Positions 1-11,788 of a stretch of DNA of 64,000 nt are shown piece by piece. The notes below the pieces were generated by a model that searched no databases, was not told the DNA's origin, and saw only the letters and a program-made list of their open reading frames with translations. Source of the DNA: Prochlorococcus sp. MIT 1314. GTDB lineage: Bacteria; Cyanobacteriota; Cyanobacteriia; PCC-6307; Cyanobiaceae. The number at the start of each line of letters is the position of its first letter. Within the stretch, counting starts at the first letter, position 1. The stretch covers positions 682,001 to 746,000 of the forward strand of contig NZ_CP139300.1 in NCBI RefSeq assembly GCF_034093315.1, given 5' to 3'. The translations under genes and the position numbers were made by a program.

Positions 1-265
1 GACAAAATTCTTTCCAGGCATCAACTTCAGATGAATTATCACCACAATTATTCTTATTTCTTAAAAAAATATTTATAAAGTTTGATCTTCCTATATTTAA
101 TATTCTTTCATCATCGCTACAAACAAAAATTTCCTCACATACTTTACTTGCTTTTAGATGATCTATTGCAATTTGTACTAAACTTTTTCCATTAATTTTT
201 TGTAAATTTTTATCAGGGATTCCTTTTGATCCCCCTCTTGCAAAAATTGCTCCTATTGTAACCAC
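1..265 (-). CDS. neuA: CMP-nonulosonate (sialic acid) cytidylyltransferase, 3' part cut by window edge
   Basis: The first 88 codons are present; the rest lies beyond the left edge. The N-terminus reads VTIGAIFARGGSKGIPDKN, the CTP-binding signature of acylneuraminate cytidylyltransferases, which activate a nonulosonic acid as its CMP-sugar. A later segment, EEIFVCSDDERI, fits the same Rossmann-like fold. I place the start at a GTG at 265, overlapping the end of the oxidoreductase gene by 13 bases, so translation is probably coupled. It is the fifth gene of a leftward operon with NeuB and NeuC homologues, which supports the sialic/legionaminic-type assignment over KdsB. The exact sugar cannot be told from sequence. 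Confidence 0.85.
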   Translation of the reverse strand, partial: MVTIGAIFARGGSKGIPDKNLQKINGKSLVQIAIDHLKASKVCEEIFVCSDDERILNIGRSNFINIFLRNKNNCGDNSSEVDAWKEFC

Positions 266-1197
266 AAAATTTCTTTACTTAATACTGCATAGTATAAACC
301 TCTTTCATAATTACAAAAATATTTATATTTAACTCCATATTCTAATGCAGCTTTTATTTGCCTTTTAAAACTTTTGTTTCTTTCTTCAAGAAATAAGTCT
401 GAAGATTTGAGGGAGCCTTTATAGAAGCGTTTTAATTTTTGACTTAAATGATCATAAATTAAATTTGTTCCGTTTTTAAATCTAATTTCAGATACTCTTG
501 ATTCAAGAGATGATGCAAAAGAGATGAAAACTGAACTTATAAAATTTTTCTCAGTTTGTTTATTAATTAATAAAGCACTATCTTCCACATCAAAATTTTT
601 AAATTTTTGCTTCCATTTATAACCAATCTGTTCTTGTATTTTACCACCTAAAAATTCGCATAAATCGATTTCATGACTTAATTCATTTAGCACACCACCA
701 CCCTTTCTTAATTGTAGAGAAGTCGATTCACTTAATTTCCTTAAATCTTTTCTTCTCCAATTATTCAAATCACTCAAGCATTTCATAGTTATAGAGTCAA
801 TTTCCGAGTTTTCCAGGATAGATATTTTTTTCATCTCTTGTATGCCACTTTCAAATCTTTTATTAAATCCAACAATAATTTTTTCTGAATGTATGCAAGA
901 AATTTTTTTGTAGATTAATTGATATGGGAAAAGAGGTTTTTCAACAATAATTAACTTCGCAATGTTTCCTAACAAATTTATATCAACAAGATGTCTAGAG
1001 GCACTAGAACAAACTATTCCAATTTCACAAGTAACTTCCTCAGGATGACTAACTCTGAATTGATTTTCTTCTAGCCATTCTTTTCTATTTTTAGAAGGAG
1101 AAAAAATATGAACATTTAATGACATCTCTTCACATATTCTGTAATGTCTAAGAGCAATACTTCCACTTCCAATAATAAAAATATCTACATGCTTCAT
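253..1197 (-). CDS. Gfo/Idh/MocA-family oxidoreductase of the nonulosonic acid operon
   Basis: NAD(P)-dependent sugar oxidoreductase of 314 residues. A dinucleotide-binding IIGSGSIALRH lies at residues 8-18, the family EKP motif at 86-88, and GGGVLNELSHEIDL at 166-179, matching the substrate-domain helix that carries the usual catalytic His. I chose the ATG at 1197 because it overlaps the neuC stop as ATGA; a GTG two codons upstream is also open. Members of this family occur in sialic and legionaminic clusters (the PtmA/NeuA-adjacent type), where their exact step is often unproven. It probably alters the sugar or its precursor before CMP activation. Confidence 0.8.
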   Translation of the reverse strand: MKHVDIFIIGSGSIALRHYRICEEMSLNVHIFSPSKNRKEWLEENQFRVSHPEEVTCEIGIVCSSASRHLVDINLLGNIAKLIIVEKPLFPYQLIYKKISCIHSEKIIVGFNKRFESGIQEMKKISILENSEIDSITMKCLSDLNNWRRKDLRKLSESTSLQLRKGGGVLNELSHEIDLCEFLGGKIQEQIGYKWKQKFKNFDVEDSALLINKQTEKNFISSVFISFASSLESRVSEIRFKNGTNLIYDHLSQKLKRFYKGSLKSSDLFLEERNKSFKRQIKAALEYGVKYKYFCNYERGLYYAVLSKEILWLQ

Positions 1198-2357
1198 GCC
1201 CACTTTTTGAATAGAATTTCATTCCTACTTTTACTATTAAGTATTCCATCAACATGTTCATATAATAAATTGCAGGAATTTTTATTACTATAGGGATTTA
1301 CAACTTCTTTTGGCATAAACTTAGATAGTGCAAGCAAATTTTTATAAATTTCATTTGCATCTGCCTTTATATCTATTTGTGTGGAGGCTTTTTCTCTTCC
1401 AGTTTGTCTAATACCTATATTTAACCCATTTGCTTTAAAAAAAGGAGCTTCCTTGATTATAGAGCTGGAATTACCACATAAAGTAACACTTTTTTTTCTG
1501 GCAAGGCCCAATAAAGAATGGTATCTATAACCTCCTAAGCTCTCAATATATTGACAATTATGAATGTTTGATATTTTTTGCTGAATTTTCCGAAATATTA
1601 TTTGGTTCCCTTTATCAGGATTTGGGGAGGTTATTATTATGTCAGCTTGAACTTCTTTTGAGAAAATTTCTAATCCCTTTAATACCTCTTCAATTTCATA
1701 TTCAGTAATTTGTTCAGACCTAGGAATAGGATGCATAGTACAAATCACAAGAGGTCTATCATCTTTTAATTTCAATTGATGAGCCACTATTTTCGATTCC
1801 TTTAATGGAATTATTTTCATATCACCATAACTCAATAAACCTATTTGTTTGATTCTCCACTTCTCCTCTCCAAAATTTTGTAGGACCTCCGTACCTTTAT
1901 AAGTTGAACAAGCGTGGATATGTGAAATTTTCGAAATACAATGCCTTAGTTGATCGTCATAAGTTCCCCCTTCGGTGATATCTCCAGCTTCAACATGAAA
2001 ATTTATCAAATCGGCATGGAATGTTGCCAAAGCAAATGCAAAACTTTCATATCTATCAGCATATACCAAAGCTAAATCTGGTTTAATAGATTTTATAATT
2101 TTATCGACCTTACACGAAATATTCGATATTTCTTCGATGTGATTTTTATTTTCAAATTTCAGACTTTTTATTTTCCCACAAATATTTATATTATCGTTGA
2201 TTATATCCTCTAAAGTTTTGCCTTCTTTTTCCTCAAGAATTCCGCCAGTAACAATAAGATTTAGTTTGTATTTATTACTGTTGCAAAATTTCTTAAATGC
2301 AGGCCTTTGCAAATAATAATCAGCTCTGCTGCCTGATAACGCTAAGATACTCTTCAT
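1194..2357 (-). CDS. neuC: UDP-GlcNAc 2-epimerase (hydrolysing), NeuC/LegG type
   Basis: The 387-residue product matches hydrolysing UDP-N-acetylhexosamine 2-epimerases, which release the free mannosamine-type sugar that NeuB condenses. The N-terminal GSRADY (residues 9-14) is the hallmark of the NeuC/LegG branch. HVEAGDITEGGTYDDQLRHC (121-140) is the conserved epimerase core, followed by KISHIH. Length is normal. It lies 24 bases downstream of neuB and overlaps the next gene by 4 bases (ATGA). Next to a LegB-type 4,6-dehydratase it more likely acts on a 2,4-diacetamido-trideoxy UDP-sugar (LegG) than on plain UDP-GlcNAc; that choice is inference. Confidence 0.87.
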   Translation of the reverse strand: MKSILALSGSRADYYLQRPAFKKFCNSNKYKLNLIVTGGILEEKEGKTLEDIINDNINICGKIKSLKFENKNHIEEISNISCKVDKIIKSIKPDLALVYADRYESFAFALATFHADLINFHVEAGDITEGGTYDDQLRHCISKISHIHACSTYKGTEVLQNFGEEKWRIKQIGLLSYGDMKIIPLKESKIVAHQLKLKDDRPLVICTMHPIPRSEQITEYEIEEVLKGLEIFSKEVQADIIITSPNPDKGNQIIFRKIQQKISNIHNCQYIESLGGYRYHSLLGLARKKSVTLCGNSSSIIKEAPFFKANGLNIGIRQTGREKASTQIDIKADANEIYKNLLALSKFMPKEVVNPYSNKNSCNLLYEHVDGILNSKSRNEILFKKWA

Positions 2358-2381
2358 AATTAAGGACCAAACTTATTTAAT

Positions 2382-3416
2382 CTAATTAATCCATTTTTTT
2401 AGAATATGGGATCCATTTTTTATTTTTTGATTTGAAACTCTGCCAAGATATTCGTAATATTCACTAGCAAAGATATCACCCTTAGATGGTCTTTTAGGCA
2501 CGCAATTTTCTTCTGTCAATTTTTCTCCAATATTTATATCTCTTATAGCGACTAAAGTGGCAAATGCAAAATCTCTTGTATTCTGCTCTTCTATAAGGGA
2601 TTTTTCTTTAGTACCCCCTCTCATTTGAAACATTAATTCGCTTTCTTCTCTTAATGAAGACAATTGCCCTGGATCCATGGAATTGATAATATCAGGTCCT
2701 TCTCGATCAAAGGAGTCAGTAAAGTGTCTTTCTAAAATTACAGCTCCAAGGGCAGTAGCTCCTAAGCATGCCAGATTTGAAACTGTATGATCTGATAATC
2801 CAACATTATCGTAACCTGCTAGCTCTTGAAGTTCTTTTAAGCCTCCAAGCCTAACCAATTCATATGGAGTGGGATATAAATTTGTTGTATGCATTAATAT
2901 AACTTCTGTTTTAAGACTTCCTTTGACAAAAGAATATGTCTTTTTACAGCTCTCATAAGTATTCATCCCAGTACTAATTATCATTGGTTTTTGATAATTA
3001 GCAATCGTCTTTAAGACATGAAAATTATTACATTCTCCAGAGCCAACTTTAAAAGCTTTTACTCCAAATTCTCCAAGAAATTCTGCAGCTTTGGCTGAAA
3101 AAGGAGTGCATAAATACTCGACATTTAATTTCTCAATAAAATTCTTTAGTTCATATTCTTCGTCAATTGTGAGAGAACAGTCTTCCATTATATGAAAGAT
3201 AGACTTATCACAATGTGAAGGGATAACTTTTGTTGCCTCTTCTGACATCTCAGCATTAGGTATGTGTAATTGACTCTTTATAATATCTGCTCCATTGATA
3301 GCAGCTAACTCAGCAAGTTTTTTGGCTTCATCTAATGATCCATTATGATTTATTCCAAGCTCAGCTATAATTTTTGGTCTAAAACTAATGCCAATATCAA
3401 GTTTGCCTATTTTCAT
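2382..3416 (-). CDS. neuB: Nonulosonic acid synthase, NeuB/LegI family
   Basis: Condenses phosphoenolpyruvate with a mannosamine-type hexose to give a nine-carbon sialic/legionaminic-type acid. The 344 residues form a TIM barrel with AELGINHNG at 18-26, a KVGSGE loop at 123-128, SDHT at 208-211 and ERHFTDSFDREGPD at 229-242, all typical of NeuB active sites. An antifreeze-like SAF domain follows from about residue 280, with RDINIGEKLTEENC. Length is normal. Its start overlaps the stop of the LegB-like gene by 4 bases. A second, more divergent NeuB-like protein lies at 5.8 kb. Confidence 0.9.
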   Translation of the reverse strand: MKIGKLDIGISFRPKIIAELGINHNGSLDEAKKLAELAAINGADIIKSQLHIPNAEMSEEATKVIPSHCDKSIFHIMEDCSLTIDEEYELKNFIEKLNVEYLCTPFSAKAAEFLGEFGVKAFKVGSGECNNFHVLKTIANYQKPMIISTGMNTYESCKKTYSFVKGSLKTEVILMHTTNLYPTPYELVRLGGLKELQELAGYDNVGLSDHTVSNLACLGATALGAVILERHFTDSFDREGPDIINSMDPGQLSSLREESELMFQMRGGTKEKSLIEEQNTRDFAFATLVAIRDINIGEKLTEENCVPKRPSKGDIFASEYYEYLGRVSNQKIKNGSHILKKWIN

Positions 3417-4399
3417 ATTATGTAATAACCACTTGGTTCTTTGTTAGATTTATAGAATTCTACTGTCTTTTCCAAACCTCTCTTAAATCCGTCTAATCCA
3501 CCATATTCAGGCTGCCAGCCTGTAATTGATTTTATTAAAGAATTATCTCCAAAAAGTCTTTCTACCTCAGAAGCCTTAGGTCTTAAACGATTGTTATCCT
3601 GTTTTATAGGTTTGTTTATACCTAAAATCTCCTGGATTATTATTACTACCTGATTAATACTAACCTCAAAATTACTCGCAGAATTTAGAACTTTACCTTT
3701 ACATTTATTAGAAGCAAGTATTGATGAGAATGCCCTACAAGTATCCTCTACATAATTAAAATCTCTCGTAGTTTCTAAGCTACCTAATTCAATATATTCT
3801 CTTTTATCATCAAGAAGTTGATTTATTATTGTTGGAATAACTGCTCTTTGAGATTGTCTTGGGCCATATGTATTAAAAGGTCTTAGTATTCTTACATCTG
3901 TATCAAATGACTTTTCATAGCTTAAAGCCAATTCATCACAGGCAATTTTGGTAGCTGAATACGGCGATTGTCCTACTTTTGGATGAGATTCATCTATAGG
4001 AATATATTGTGCAGAACCATAAACTTCACTTGTGGAAGTTTGAATCAAGATTTTTTTGGTGGATTTAATTTCTTCCAAAATATTCATAGTTCCAATTATA
4101 TTAGTGTTTACGTAGGATCCAGGAGATTTATAACTATAAGGTATACCAATTAAAGCTGCCAAATTAAAAATAGCCTCCACATCTATTAAAGCTTCTTTTA
4201 TAAAACTTCTATCCGATATATCGCCTATAATTATCTTATTCTTATCTAAATTACCTAATTTAATAGATTCTTCTAAATTACCATAGTTAACTTTAGAAGA
4301 ATATTTAATCATAGGAATAACATCAAAACCCTTTTTAACTAATTCTGCAACCAGATGAGATCCTATAAACCCTCCTGCACCTGTCACTAAAACTTTCAT
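3413..4399 (-). CDS. legB: LegB-like NAD-dependent nucleotide-sugar 4,6-dehydratase (extended SDR)
   Basis: Extended short-chain dehydrogenase of 328 residues from the ATG at 4399; a TTG two codons upstream is less likely. It has the NAD motif TGAGGFIG (6-13), TSTSEVYG (121-128) and the catalytic YSATK (Y147, K151). SPYSATK followed by RPFNTYGPRQ closely resembles LegB-type dehydratases that start legionaminic acid synthesis by 4,6-dehydration and 5-epimerisation of a UDP-/GDP-GlcNAc. It is the promoter-proximal gene of the neuB-neuC-neuA operon. The partner aminotransferase (LegC) and acetyltransferase (LegH) are not in the window. A dTDP-glucose or UDP-glucuronate epimerase is a less likely alternative. 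Confidence 0.75.
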   Translation of the reverse strand: MKVLVTGAGGFIGSHLVAELVKKGFDVIPMIKYSSKVNYGNLEESIKLGNLDKNKIIIGDISDRSFIKEALIDVEAIFNLAALIGIPYSYKSPGSYVNTNIIGTMNILEEIKSTKKILIQTSTSEVYGSAQYIPIDESHPKVGQSPYSATKIACDELALSYEKSFDTDVRILRPFNTYGPRQSQRAVIPTIINQLLDDKREYIELGSLETTRDFNYVEDTCRAFSSILASNKCKGKVLNSASNFEVSINQVVIIIQEILGINKPIKQDNNRLRPKASEVERLFGDNSLIKSITGWQPEYGGLDGFKRGLEKTVEFYKSNKEPSGYYII

Positions 4400-4480
4400 T
4401 ATCAAATTAATCCTAATTAAATATTAGTATTTTTGAAGCTATAAAGAAAACTTTGAAAATTTAATTTCATAAAGATATTT

Positions 4481-5797: not shown

Positions 5798-7318
5798 TTG
5801 ACTTACAGAATTATTTTTGAAATAGCCAACAATCATCAAGGTAGATTAAGTCATTTTGAGGGGATTCTGAAGGATATTACATCATCAATCAATTCTTATT
5901 GTGATTATTTTGATTTCATTGTGAAGTTTCAATTCAGAGATATTCCATCATTTATTGACAAAACGATTGATCCCAACTCTAACAAACATATCCCAAGATT
6001 TCTTGAAACCCAATTAAGTGATGAGGATTGGAAAAGTATTTTTGAATTAGTACACAAAAACAATCTAAAAGTAATGGTTACTCCATTTGATGAAGCTTCT
6101 GTAGCCAAAGCTATAAATTATGGAGTTGACGAGCTTAAGATAGCATCATGCTCTTCAACTGAATGGAGCTTAATAGAAGCCTGCACTTTAACAAAAAAAC
6201 CTTTAACCATATCAACCGCTGGAAGAAACTTAAATGAGATTGATAATATTTATTCTTATTTATCCAGAAAAATGCCAAATAAATTCACTATCATGCATTG
6301 TTGCGGGATTTATCCAGCTCCATTAAAGAATCTTAACTTGAGTTTTATTCCTAAAATGATAAAAAGATATCCTTTGGCATCTATAGGTTATTCAGGCCAT
6401 GAAGATCCTCATAATCACAATATCTCCTCATTAGCTATAGCATTAGGAGCAATTTCTCTAGAAAGACATGTTGGGAAAGTAAATGAAGAAAAAAATATCA
6501 AAATAAATGCCTACAGTGTAGATAGTAAAGAAATATCAAATTGGCTTGAATCTCTTAAACAAACTATTGATTCTTTAGGATCTCTTAAAACAGATAACTA
6601 CTACTGTGAAAATGAAGCTAGTGCATTGGAATCTCTTCAAAGGGGTGTTTTTACACGAAAAAAAATAAGAAAAGGAGAAGTACTAAACCTTAGCAATTGT
6701 GAATTTAAGTTCCCTATTCAAAAAGGCCAAATTTCGGCCGCTGAATTAACTTCAATTGATAATAAATTTATAGCAAAACAAGACTTAAATGAAGGCTTAA
6801 GACTAAATAGAGATCTAACTTTAAATTCAGTTTCTGAAAATGTTTTTTTAAAAAACTATATTCATAAAATCAGGGGACTTATTAATGAATATTGTGAATA
6901 TATACCAAATGAAGTAGAAGTAGAAATATCACATCATTATGGTATTGATAAAATTTTTGATTACGGTTGTTGCATCATCAATATTATTAATAGGAGTTAT
7001 TGTAAAAAGCTAATATTAATGACTAAAGGACAAAATCACCCTACTCAATATCACCTAGTAAAAGAAGAGACCTTCAGGATACTTCATGGAGAAATTGAAT
7101 TAATTTTAGATGGCAATTCAAGAATTCTCAAGAAAGGCGACGAGGCTTTAGTTAGATCAAGTATAAAACATTCATTTAATGCTATTTCTGATTGCATAAT
7201 CGAAGAATTATCCACAACAAGCATTAAAGAAGATTCATACTACTCAGATAAAAAGATTAGTGATCTTCCCAGGGAGCATAGAAAAAGTATTCATAGCCTT
7301 AACCATGGTAAATATTAA
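5798..7318 (+). CDS. NeuB/SpsE-like synthase fused to a C-terminal cupin domain
   Basis: The 506-residue product has three parts. A NeuB-like TIM barrel (about 1-270) has EIANNHQG at 8-15 and SGHE, then LERHVG, where NeuB usually has SDHT and ERHFT. A SAF/antifreeze-like segment (about 280-330) includes RGVFTRKKIRKGE. A cupin (about 395-470) has NHPTQYHLVKEETF and ILHGEIEL, with the spaced His and Glu residues that bind metal. The barrel should condense PEP with a sugar; the cupin could isomerise, epimerise or bind it. The start is a TTG at 5798. It stands alone facing right and ends with a 4-base overlap of the convergent methyltransferase gene. The true product is unknown. Confidence 0.75.
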   Translation: MTYRIIFEIANNHQGRLSHFEGILKDITSSINSYCDYFDFIVKFQFRDIPSFIDKTIDPNSNKHIPRFLETQLSDEDWKSIFELVHKNNLKVMVTPFDEASVAKAINYGVDELKIASCSSTEWSLIEACTLTKKPLTISTAGRNLNEIDNIYSYLSRKMPNKFTIMHCCGIYPAPLKNLNLSFIPKMIKRYPLASIGYSGHEDPHNHNISSLAIALGAISLERHVGKVNEEKNIKINAYSVDSKEISNWLESLKQTIDSLGSLKTDNYYCENEASALESLQRGVFTRKKIRKGEVLNLSNCEFKFPIQKGQISAAELTSIDNKFIAKQDLNEGLRLNRDLTLNSVSENVFLKNYIHKIRGLINEYCEYIPNEVEVEISHHYGIDKIFDYGCCIINIINRSYCKKLILMTKGQNHPTQYHLVKEETFRILHGEIELILDGNSRILKKGDEALVRSSIKHSFNAISDCIIEELSTTSIKEDSYYSDKKISDLPREHRKSIHSLNHGKY

Positions 7319-9189: not shown

Positions 9190-10476
9190 CTATAAATTAA
9201 ATAGAAGTATTTCCCTTTTTTTATTATGAGTTGAGTCTACTGAAATTAAATTATCTGATTTTATAAGTCTTGGATGTAAGTCACATCTGAATTCTTTTGT
9301 ATATCTCATTGGTGAAGACAAATTTGCTATTGTTTTAATCTTCCTATTATTAAAGCTATATAATTTCTGAATTCTAAAAATGTCAGGATAAGTATCGGAT
9401 ATTATATCGAATTTATCTAAATGAGTTTGATGACCATCCTTATACAAAAGTTTATTTGATCTATTAGCATCTAATAAAATTTCCGAATCTCTTTCTATAT
9501 CAAATATATGGTAAGTAAATAATTTAGATATTTTACCCAAACAAAATATTGATATATATCTATCGTCAATCCATGAAAAATGAGACGCAGTTGGAGTCTT
9601 AGTAATTTTCTTTATTACATTCCCAGATTTACTAATAATGTACAAATCATTAGATCTAATATTATTGATCTCTGATAAATGATAGAAACTTATCCATTTT
9701 CCAGTTTTTGAGGATCCTATATGGTTAATATAATCTTTTTCACTAATTTCCCTTTTTATAAAACCCAACCTTCTTAGATCTGATAATGAAATCAATATCC
9801 TTAACTTTCTTGTATCTATATCGTATTCATAAATATTTTGGCAACCATCGCCAACAAGAGGGTCTTTAATTTCTTCAATATTTTTTGAATGACCATATCC
9901 ATATCCAGGTCTCTTTTTTTCTAATTCTGTAAATGATAAAGTATAAATTTTTTTAGAATCAGGGGAAATCTCAAAAAATGGATAAGGATAAAATATCTTT
10001 TCTTTGCTATCAATATTGATAATACATGTTGATAATATATTTTCATTATTCAAAGAATTAAAAACTAAATTAAACTTCTCCTGAGGATGCCATCTTAATC
10101 TTGATCCCTGCTGCCAAGACCAACAGGAGGAAGATGCTATTTTAAAAAATTCTTTTTTATTTTTTAAATCGAAATAACCAATATCTAAAACTAAACTTTC
10201 TGGAGAGTTTTTAGTGGCTAGCCTTCTTTTATGTGCTAAGTGTAATTTTCTTTCAGTATTAAATGGATCATAATCAAAATAACCAAAAAACACATCTTCT
10301 GATTTTGAGCATAATTTTATTGCTTTTTTGTAAGAAGAATTTGAGTATAGCCTTCCTATAAAATAATATATTTTTCTCATAAAAAAGTTTGCCAAAAAGG
10401 GTCTAAGAAATTCTTTAAAAATATTATGATTGCTATGTATCATTTTCATAACAAGTATCCTGATTAAACTCATCAA
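9190..10476 (-). CDS. Unknown protein, possibly beta-propeller-like, of the polysaccharide island
   Basis: I do not recognise this 428-residue product. It is rich in aromatic and basic residues and shows repeating short strands of the kind seen in beta-propellers: SSCWSWQQGSRLRWHP, FFEISPDSKKIYTLSF, ASHFSWIDDRYISIF and DGHQTHLDKFDIISDTYPDIF. The last resembles the HxxxDxF loops of TolB/oligogalacturonate-lyase-like propellers. No signal peptide is clear; the N-terminus has several in-frame Met residues (2, 10, 12), so the start is uncertain. Its place between glycosyltransferases and the export block suggests a role in glycan assembly or turnover. Confidence 0.6.
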   Translation of the reverse strand: MMSLIRILVMKMIHSNHNIFKEFLRPFLANFFMRKIYYFIGRLYSNSSYKKAIKLCSKSEDVFFGYFDYDPFNTERKLHLAHKRRLATKNSPESLVLDIGYFDLKNKKEFFKIASSSCWSWQQGSRLRWHPQEKFNLVFNSLNNENILSTCIINIDSKEKIFYPYPFFEISPDSKKIYTLSFTELEKKRPGYGYGHSKNIEEIKDPLVGDGCQNIYEYDIDTRKLRILISLSDLRRLGFIKREISEKDYINHIGSSKTGKWISFYHLSEINNIRSNDLYIISKSGNVIKKITKTPTASHFSWIDDRYISIFCLGKISKLFTYHIFDIERDSEILLDANRSNKLLYKDGHQTHLDKFDIISDTYPDIFRIQKLYSFNNRKIKTIANLSSPMRYTKEFRCDLHPRLIKSDNLISVDSTHNKKREILLFNL

Positions 10477-10564: not shown

Positions 10565-11788
10565 ATGTCAAATAAAATATTAAATTCGATTAGAAAAACT
10601 ATAACTATTAATGTTTTAGTATTCACTACTTTAATATTTGCTATAGAAATTTTGTTAGGCATATGCATACTTATAAGAAACTATAATAAAGAAAGAAATA
10701 TTATTCCAGGGAAGCTTCAATTTCAAATAAGCGGTACTACTGGACACAAAAGGATACTAGATAACAAATCAAAATTATTGCTATCAAAATACAAAATATA
10801 TGACGAAATAAATGATCAAAGATCAATTAAATCTTTTAAGAAAAGCAACTCTAAAAAGAATATAAAGTTATTAACTCTTGGTGGTTCAACTTCGGATCCT
10901 CTAGGATTTATGTATTCAGGAATAGATGGTAACTGGACTCTACAACTAGGAAAACTTTTTTTAAAAAAAAATATATCTAGTGAAATTCATAACTATGCTC
11001 AAGGTGGTTTTAATTCATCTCAAGAATTAATAAGCTTTATTAAAAGCAGTAAAATTGTTAACCCAGATATCATTCTGAGTTTAAGTGGAATAAATGAATA
11101 CTATTTTATTAGAAATAATTATCTTAAAGATGATAAAAATATATATCAATCAGATATTTATACGAAGGGTGAAAACGGCTACAGAGGAAACAAAATAATA
11201 TTTGGTAATAATAAATTTTTAAAATGCAATTTTATTTGCTTTGACGTTAACTATAAATCAAATATTAGAAGATTTATAAATTATATTCAGGCAAAAAAGA
11301 TAATAAACTCAAATTCTAAAATCACTCATCTAAAAATCAATGAAGAAGATTTTATTAAATATAAAAATGCAAATATCACTAGTATAAAAAGAGCGAGTAA
11401 TATTTTTATTTCCAATCATGAAAGTATTAACCTTTTAGCAAAAAAAATGAATCGAAATTATTACTTATTTCTTCAACCAACAATATATGTTGAGAATATA
11501 AATGATTTAATATTTTCTGAAAAATCTATTTACGAATACCTCAAGAAAAACTTCCCATATGAAGATCCAAAAGTGATTGCACAAATTTCAAAAAAAGAAA
11601 AATATATTTTTAGCATGAACCTGCTTTATAAAGAATTACGAAAGGAATGTGCAGAGAGAGATTTTTGTTTTGATATAAGTAATATCCTTGTTGGTAATTC
11701 TACAAAAGTTTATAAAGATGCTAGGCATCCAAATGCTATAGGTAATCGAATTATCTCAAAAGAAATATTATCTAAAATAGAACTGTAA
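10565..11788 (+). CDS. Membrane-anchored SGNH/GDSL-type hydrolase or acyltransferase
   Basis: The 407-residue product has one N-terminal membrane segment (about 14-37) and an extracytoplasmic SGNH domain. Block I is LTLGGSTSD (103-111) with the nucleophile Ser108; block II is YAQGGFNS (144-151); block III is SGINEYY (174-180); block V is DARH (385-388), giving the catalytic Asp and His. Such proteins add or remove O-acyl groups on surface glycans. It converges on the WecA-like gene with one base between. Two further SGNH domains lie at 29.9-31.9 and 32.6-33.7 kb. Confidence 0.75.
   Translation: MSNKILNSIRKTITINVLVFTTLIFAIEILLGICILIRNYNKERNIIPGKLQFQISGTTGHKRILDNKSKLLLSKYKIYDEINDQRSIKSFKKSNSKKNIKLLTLGGSTSDPLGFMYSGIDGNWTLQLGKLFLKKNISSEIHNYAQGGFNSSQELISFIKSSKIVNPDIILSLSGINEYYFIRNNYLKDDKNIYQSDIYTKGENGYRGNKIIFGNNKFLKCNFICFDVNYKSNIRRFINYIQAKKIINSNSKITHLKINEEDFIKYKNANITSIKRASNIFISNHESINLLAKKMNRNYYLFLQPTIYVENINDLIFSEKSIYEYLKKNFPYEDPKVIAQISKKEKYIFSMNLLYKELRKECAERDFCFDISNILVGNSTKVYKDARHPNAIGNRIISKEILSKIEL

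Follow-up and report, generated by a model that had tools for sequence, protein, structure and literature searches.

The stretch of DNA analysed here, the window, comprises 64,000 nucleotides of Prochlorococcus sp. MIT 1314 (C1:682001-746000 of the 1.70-Mb genome). Near its start lies a gene for a protein in which a NeuB-type barrel, an antifreeze-like (SAF) domain and a cupin are joined in one chain. We call this NeuB-SAF-cupin fusion NBC, and we propose that it is a bifunctional isomerase-synthase which would turn a sugar lacking an N-acetyl group into a 3-deoxy-2-ulosonic acid, a reading to which we give a probability of roughly 0.6. The gene and its parts are the following.

5798..7318, + strand: NBC fusion, an open frame of 506 amino acids with a TTG start.
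5798..6637, + strand: NeuB-type (beta/alpha)8 barrel, residues 1-280, with Pfam NeuB, structure matches and an invariant site for phosphoenolpyruvate (PEP) and metal.
6392..6403, + strand: SGHE motif, residues 199-202; the form in the family is S-[TGS]-H-E.
6638..6826, + strand: SAF domain, residues 281-343, placed by structure alignment, with Phe305 where NeuB of Neisseria meningitidis (NmNeuB) has Arg314.
6833..7315, + strand: C-terminal cupin, residues 346-506, of the D-lyxose isomerase type by profile and structure.
7046..7069, + strand: cupin motif 1 by alignment, Gln417, His419, Lys422 and Glu424 (H75, H77, K86 and E88 in the Thermofilum D-lyxose isomerase TsLI).
7169..7207, + strand: cupin motif 2 by alignment, His458, plus Glu470 (TsLI H143 and E156), both invariant in 108/108 aligned proteins.

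The TTG start lines up with the ATG of a homologue in a related genome (G008). Pfam NeuB matches residues 42-262 (E 2.7e-37, 129 bits against a cut-off of 22.1) and Cupin_2 residues 407-465 (E 2.3e-7). Pfam SAF gives no match in the window protein; this part is covered by structure, the AlphaFold2 model aligning to NeuB structures over residues 1-342. The model of the whole protein, made with 106 sequences, has a pLDDT of 94.6 and a pTM of 0.87. Foldseek places 3g8r at the top for this model (1.9e-34), followed by NeuB, PseI and SpsE structures and then, for the C-terminus, D-lyxose isomerases (1.3e-11), and VIA gives a Z of 38.6 to 3g8r and 31.4 to NmNeuB. An earlier reading of this DNA, the original prediction, had seen a NeuB-SAF-cupin fusion here, and the fusion is real.

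The barrel was compared in an alignment of 108 rows, for which the window protein and its homologues in G008 and G041 were added to the fusions collected from public contigs (see below) and two fusions longer than 600 amino acids were left out. Residues K43, Q45, T95, F97, K114, S117, S139, Y172, S199, H201, E222 and H224 are invariant in 108/108; their NmNeuB counterparts are, in the same order, K53, Q55, T110, F112, K129, S132, S154, Y186, S213, H215, E234 and H236. General background on NeuB enzymes adds K53, S132, S154, H236 and Glu134 of NmNeuB to the site residues and divides the residues into PEP and metal roles. The remaining NmNeuB residues are those listed in PMC6795526. Among the PEP and metal residues Asn184 of NmNeuB alone differs (G in 51 rows, A in 33, S in 24), and Glu25 is present as E8 (E in 83 rows, D in 25). 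The barrel is thus not short of PEP-binding residues, a lack that had been named as something which would speak against the prediction.

The sugar side looks different. Asn74 of NmNeuB aligns to N60 of the window protein in a variable column (S 44, T 22, M 13), Phe288 aligns to S279, also in a variable column, and Glu134 is replaced by Ser119. In sialic acid synthase Arg314 is reported to touch the N-acetyl group and the R314A mutant to be inactive (PMC6795526). The corresponding column 305 holds M in 62 rows, F in 20 (the window protein among them), I in 15, W in 9, P in one and a gap in one, and Arg in none. In the SGHE columns S199, H201 and E202 are invariant (108/108) and residue 200 is T in 81 rows, G in 22 and S in 5, while the DREGPD region holds N-x-Y-S instead (N237, Y239, S240), again in 108/108. 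The original prediction was right that these motifs are altered; it took them as the mark of an odd single protein, and they turn out to be normal in a family that spans many phyla. The window protein keeps 55 of the 56 residue columns that are invariant in the other 107 rows and matches 86 of the 93 columns conserved in at least 90% of the 108 rows. The NCBIfam equivalogs fall far under their cut-offs, with 121.4 bits against 399.65 for TIGR03569 (NeuB) and 114.9 against 340.25 for TIGR03586 (PseI).

Judged by its residues, the barrel is a member of the NeuB superfamily with a largely preserved PEP half and a remodelled sugar half. The same division, a conserved PEP side and a variable sugar side, has been described for Neu, Leg and Pse synthases compared with one another (PMC7371886). 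The original prediction proposed 2-acetamido sugars as substrates; these are unlikely, because an equivalent of Arg314 is absent in 108/108, and the substrate would rather be a sugar that lacks N-acetyl where Arg314 of sialic acid synthase recognises it. NmNeuB (NeuB/SiaC; 1xuu, 4ipi) shares with NBC the barrel, the SAF domain and the PEP and Mn ligands at about 21% identity, but NBC lacks Arg314, Asn184, Phe288, Glu134 and the DREGPD region and has the extra cupin. Closer is 3g8r, the 'spore coat polysaccharide biosynthesis protein E' of Chromobacterium violaceum, which belongs to the same barrel-SAF subfamily (profile E 5.9e-143) and carries the motif STHE. Its solved chain of 350 residues has no cupin, unlike NBC, and the title of the entry gives the function as probable or putative.

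The cupin is a domain of the D-lyxose/D-mannose isomerase type over its full length. A profile from 54 of the 106 cupin parts finds 2y0o, the D-lyxose isomerase of Bacillus subtilis (2.1e-18), and 7nzo, which is TsLI (4.5e-17); quercetinases and other cupins rank behind the D-lyxose isomerases. Pfam Lyx_isomer matches 54/54 members scanned at E<=0.1, the best at 3.4e-10. Modelled alone (pLDDT 94.3), the window cupin gives a VIA Z of 19.3 to 7nzo (1.8 A over 144 residues), 18.8 to 2y0o and 16.8 to 3kmh, the range for D-lyxose isomerases being 16.5-19.3. L-ribose isomerases come next (14.5-15.5), and KdgF, at 13.7, is the first cupin which is not an aldose isomerase. The TsLI residues K62, H75, H77, K86, E88, H143, E156 and D163 (PMC8378251; the numbering offset of 24 was set by matching the HxH/KxE motif) map to K404, Q417, H419, K422, E424, H458, E470 and K477, and all of these positions are invariant in 108/108 except 417 and 477. 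In the E. coli enzyme mutation of the residues matching K86, E156 and D163 is reported to abolish activity (PMC8378251). Of the metal site of three His and one Glu, the alignment places His419, Glu424 and His458, and Gln417 stands for the first His. The metal-ligand spacing noted in the original prediction is therefore real, with the reservation that the first ligand is not His; compared by alignment and fold, the ligands showed no such misplacement as would have spoken against the prediction. The suggestion that the cupin is a sugar isomerase gains from the full-length homology and the six of eight matching TsLI residues, and we infer that the domain catalyses aldose-ketose isomerisation. TsLI (7nzo-7nzq) and 2y0o share with it the fold and most active-site residues; they differ in being stand-alone enzymes, in having His75 where NBC has Gln, and in D163, which is not aligned. 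R175, which restricts hexoses in TsLI, has no Arg aligned to it in NBC.

A short stand-alone cupin occurs in the Synechococcus phage S-CAM1 (L023:8950-9303) in a heptose-like gene set, and is annotated 'cysteine dioxygenase' in one record. It was considered as a relative of NBC and dismissed as a different, short cupin.

A scan of public genome and viral contigs with the window protein alone found no relative; alignments of three homologues (the window protein and two others, from related genomes, that share 38-40% identity with it) did find relatives. In genome contigs 430 stretches matched the pattern and 357 encoded a relative, of which the best 80 were kept; two scans of viral contigs gave 50 and 24 loci. 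The 151 loci, some of them from the same contig, contain 139 fusion open reading frames (ORFs), 25 with the NeuB part only and four with the cupin part only, two of these four starting within 26 bases of the end of the locus. Most of the fusions (135/139) have 453-569 amino acids and four are longer, including 576, 706 and 796 by the first-start rule. Dereplication at 95% left 107 fusions, 66 from genome contigs and 41 from viral-class contigs. According to the record titles the hosts include Alphaproteobacteria, Lachnospiraceae, Mycobacterium, Pseudomonas, Planctomycetota and Verrucomicrobia. In plasmid and phage collections the matches listed were to the NeuB part or the cupin part only, and no record covered 80% of the query. 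A search of ten neighbouring ORFs of four viral-class loci against PHROGs gave no phage structural family; five had no match and the others hit glycosyltransferases, radical SAM families and unknowns. The viral label of these contigs should therefore be read as a classification only. The viral-class loci (L114-L184) carry NeuA-, NeuB-, ThDP- (thiamine diphosphate) or glycosyltransferase-like genes.

Searches of the window protein against Pfam and NCBIfam gave no model that spans the entire fusion. In one open-licence literature collection no paper joining NeuB, cupin and SAF domain was found, and the papers on sialic or nonulosonic acid synthases among the matches listed do not mention a cupin. 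A NeuB of related type without cupin lies at L029 (G034) beside HAD-, sugar kinase-, dehydroquinate synthase-, SDR- and ThDP-like genes, a set which by its content may be an unusual sugar pathway.

The genes around the fusions suggest what becomes of the product. Genes up to six places away from each fusion were grouped by BLAST and labelled by reading their sequences. Pfam confirmed the labels HAD, Gfo/Idh and ThDP for one homologue each and NeuA for two; the labels RfbF, DegT, SDR, radical SAM and C-methyltransferase are from sequence reading alone. Among 107 loci 56 have a NeuA-type gene (a cytidine monophosphate (CMP)-sugar synthetase) without ThDP, 35 a ThDP gene without NeuA, one has both, seven have Gfo/Idh or HAD13 only and eight have none of these. 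The co-occurrence of NeuA and ThDP in 1/107 loci gives a Fisher p of 3e-15 with relatedness ignored, a value which overstates the evidence because the ThDP-linked rows form one branch and hence one origin; this branch holds 36 labelled and three unlabelled rows, with a support of 99.7. RfbF (15/36) and DegT (19/36) accompany ThDP, and Gfo/Idh does so in 0/36. Position 417 of the cupin is Gln in 33/36 ThDP-linked rows and His in 67/67 rows of three groups outside the branch; these groups are mostly CMP-linked, with some rows labelled 0, g or AB. A gene of the HAD cluster lies within two genes of NBC in 38/107 loci and within six in 48/107. In Lachnospiraceae and relatives (L098, L102, L108, L076, L090) NBC stands beside genes read from their sequences as flagellin- and/or Maf-like, mostly with NeuA, and this gene order suggests that the product is used in flagellin glycosylation at loci of this type.

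NBC is rare around the window organism itself: 6/400 genomes of the family have a match at E<=1e-40, and only the window genome (G000) and G215 form a close pair; in another sample of 99 genomes NBC was found in G008 and, as a fragment at a contig end, in G058. By their neighbours the full-length NBCs are of three kinds: those with ThDP (G008, G418, G220), those in the order Gfo/Idh-NBC-HAD with a NeuA in the region (G041, G437), and the pair G000/G215. The G215 protein is 62% identical to that of the window (cupin 68%, barrel 59%, SAF part 54%). The rates of non-synonymous and synonymous change (pN 0.26, pS 0.73, with dS near saturation) fit purifying selection on the window gene.

In G215 the NBC gene is followed directly by a gene for a NeuA of 354 amino acids with a C-terminal HAD-like domain, overlapping it by 20 bases if the first start codon is used. 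The window genome has a copy of this NeuA-HAD gene, 56% identical to that of G215, at C1:1286011-1287057 (L199:10012-11058), about 0.6 Mb from NBC; a tblastn search of 19.9 kb around it found no NBC. In a second, separate search of 400 family genomes this NeuA-HAD was found at E<=1e-40 in two, namely G000 and G215. The cytidylyltransferase part scores above the Pfam cut-off (57.1 bits). Of 54 NeuA genes that lie no more than three genes from an NBC, 12 encode long proteins (333-366 amino acids), and the HAD motifs DIDG, TARG, KP and DD are present in 14/14 long NeuA proteins (the 12 and two cyanobacterial ones); the long NeuA genes elsewhere accompany fusions of another branch than the G000/G215 pair. 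The NeuA-HAD fusion is a probable partner of the window NBC. The original prediction of a 'self-contained' synthase was thus too strong. The HAD13-type phosphatase of the G041 operon had no match in the window genome, in a search made without positive control, which shows little.

We hypothesize the following mechanism. The cupin, with its metal, would convert a ketose or ketose phosphate to the matching aldose, and the barrel, capped by the SAF domain, would condense the aldose with PEP to a 3-deoxy-2-ulosonic acid. With isomerase and PEP synthase in one chain the unfavourable ketose-aldose equilibrium would be pulled forward. The product would most likely be dephosphorylated and CMP-activated by the unlinked NeuA-HAD and then transferred to a surface glycan, so that two genes would provide four activities: isomerase, PEP synthase, phosphatase and CMP transferase. 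A phosphorylated intermediate is suggested because the partner is a HAD-NeuA, as in the Kdn pathway. One possible route would be fructose 6-phosphate to mannose 6-phosphate to Kdn-9-phosphate to Kdn to CMP-Kdn; a product of seven or eight carbons is as open as the nine-carbon acid of the original prediction. The algal Kdn synthase is reported to have used mannose 6-phosphate and not mannose (PMC6200933). The Kdn route of Bacteroides thetaiotaomicron and Prymnesium parvum follows the same logic of PEP condensation, phosphatase and CMP activation without N-acetyl, but the enzymes are separate, and the available part of that study describes no isomerase domain on the synthase (PMC6200933). The analysis shows the identity of the domains, the conserved residues, substitutions in line with purifying selection and the joint occurrence with the partner; the catalytic steps, substrates and products are deduced from sequence and predicted structure, and should be read in the conditional throughout.

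The window also holds the operon that was regarded as the main one, outside which the fusion was said to lie:

253..4405, - strand: main operon with Gfo/Idh-like, NeuC, NeuB and LegB-like genes, continuing beyond the window.

NBC is indeed outside it, lying on the + strand. It is flanked by glycosyltransferase and methyltransferase genes on the - strand and is an orphan without an operon of its own. It was also called a second NeuB, and the genome does have two NeuB-family matches, at C1:684610-685311 (-) and C1:687921-688583 (+). Outside the window the operon continues with NeuA-, SDR- and CBS-nucleotidyltransferase-like genes. By gene content it looks like a legionaminic-type set: NeuC scores 270.8 bits with TIGR03568 (cut-off 235.9), the LegB-like protein 403 bits with TIGR04180 (cut-off 475) and NeuB 308.6 bits with TIGR03569, below the cut-off. 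A promoter scan found 8 candidates against 11.8 in shuffled sequences, i.e., not above chance, and an Rfam search of positions 1-33000 gave tRNA only. Two window ORFs beside sugar genes, 9190-10476 and 10565-11788, have no Pfam match at E<=0.01, and the only NCBIfam match of the latter is below the cut-off.

Several observations weigh against the isomerase-synthase reading. Lyx_isomer stays below its cut-off of 20.8 in the window, with 14.1 bits for the whole protein (E 0.026) and 18.2 when the domain is scored by itself. At the first ligand position the cupin has Gln417 (in the 108 rows His 71, Gln 37), and its TsLI counterpart H75 is the proposed ring-opening acid. TsLI D163 aligns to Lys477 and not to Asp, an invariant D479 being close by. 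D-lyxose isomerases are known to act on free sugars, and the HAD partner suggests phosphorylated ones. The window protein is the sole row of 108 with Glu for Asp at 122, a change shared by the G215 ortholog. The partner gene adjoins NBC in one genome only, the co-occurrence rests on two related genomes, and the HAD part is below the Pfam cut-offs and was seen by motifs and a weak match. The position of the window gene in trees varies from weakly on the CMP side, through unplaced, to sister of the ThDP branch (90/79) with G215 included. Finally, no reported activity was found for any member of the NBC family.

Some of these points feed other explanations. The cupin might act on the ulosonic acid product (ring opening, tautomerisation, epimerisation) or be structural or regulatory, the barrel then receiving its aldose from other enzymes. 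KdgF acts in such a manner on uronates; among cupins that are not aldose isomerases it is the closest, and the altered ligand set would be in line with such a role. D-lyxose and then L-ribose isomerases score above KdgF, and the counterparts of isomerase catalytic residues, K422, E424 and E470, are invariant in 108/108, for which reason we hold this explanation to be unlikely. That the product is instead a 2-keto acid donor for a YerE-like ThDP carboligase and is not CMP-activated would agree with Gln417, which the window shares with the ThDP-linked rows, and with the tree that joins the G000/G215 pair to the ThDP branch; also an approximately unbiased test on a 50-row subset without the G215 ortholog did not reject a clade of the window and the ThDP branch (p 0.278). 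Yet the only ThDP match of the genome is remote and 32% identical, perhaps an acetolactate synthase, neither the window nor the preceding 6 kb has a recognisable ThDP gene or typical cytidine diphosphate (CDP)-glucose set, and a NeuA-HAD partner exists in the genome. We read the CMP partner as a better guide to the window NBC than the protein tree, which weakly points the other way, and regard the carboligase route as improbable for this gene.

A second legionaminate or neuraminate synthase, using a 2-acetamido sugar and serving the main operon, is what membership of the NeuB superfamily near a legionaminic-type operon might lead one to expect. The missing Arg314 and the low equivalog scores speak against it, the operon has its own NeuB, and the nearest relative of the window NBC, in G215, is followed by its own CMP-synthetase; this makes such a role quite improbable. 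The scarcity of the gene in the family and the lack of an operon could also mean a horizontally acquired orphan that is decaying or without role. The intact frame, the conserved columns and a pN well below pS argue for a maintained protein, and decay seems very improbable. Against these explanations we prefer the isomerase-synthase with CMP activation by NeuA-HAD.

For the family as a whole it is quite possible, though we would not put it at even odds, that NBC serves generally to make 3-deoxy-2-ulosonic acids from ketoses, and that these acids have one of two fates, hardly ever found together: CMP activation, or use as donor by a YerE-like ThDP enzyme. In the second fate (35/107 loci) the YerE-like enzyme would decarboxylate the acid and add it to C4 of a CDP-3,6-dideoxy-4-ketohexose. 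PEP and a pentose would give a C8 acid and thus a C7 branch, as in the sugar of Mycobacterium gastri, which reportedly carries a heptyl branch; PEP and a tetrose would give a C7 acid and a C6 branch, as in caryophyllose. The latter is described with a C6 chain at C4 (PMC7821131). ErwE is reported to join a hydroxylated 2-keto acid to CDP-4-keto-3,6-dideoxyglucose and to favour 4-hydroxy-2-oxo acids, MMAR_2332 to have a similar donor preference and to be tied to caryophyllose, and MygE of M. gastri to accept C3-C8 donors, to be tied to gastriose and to be inactive with ketones in vitro (PMC12247030). The available part of that review does not name the source of the donor acid and does not mention NeuB. 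NBC would be a natural source, because the product of a NeuB-type enzyme is by its chemistry a 4-hydroxy-2-oxo acid; the YerE-like carboligases consume the 2-keto acid and do not produce it. Such ThDP genes adjoin one NBC branch and not the window gene. In a Mycobacterium gastri record (L089) the NBC ORF overlaps a ThDP ORF which L085 carries in identical form, and we infer that this is MygE. An NBC ORF that runs into a YerE-like ThDP ORF or stands ahead of it is seen at L061, L078, L085, L089 and further ThDP-linked loci, frequently with genes of the CDP-glucose type close by.

If this is true, it would explain where ErwE-like enzymes obtain the hydroxylated 2-keto acids that they prefer and give a candidate source of the donor acids for long-branched sugars such as caryophyllose and that of M. 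gastri. NeuB-type genes are easily taken for sialic acid synthases; the NBC family should instead make ulosonic acids without N-acetyl from ketoses, and this provides a testable function for a fusion that occurs in many phyla and also in viral-class contigs.

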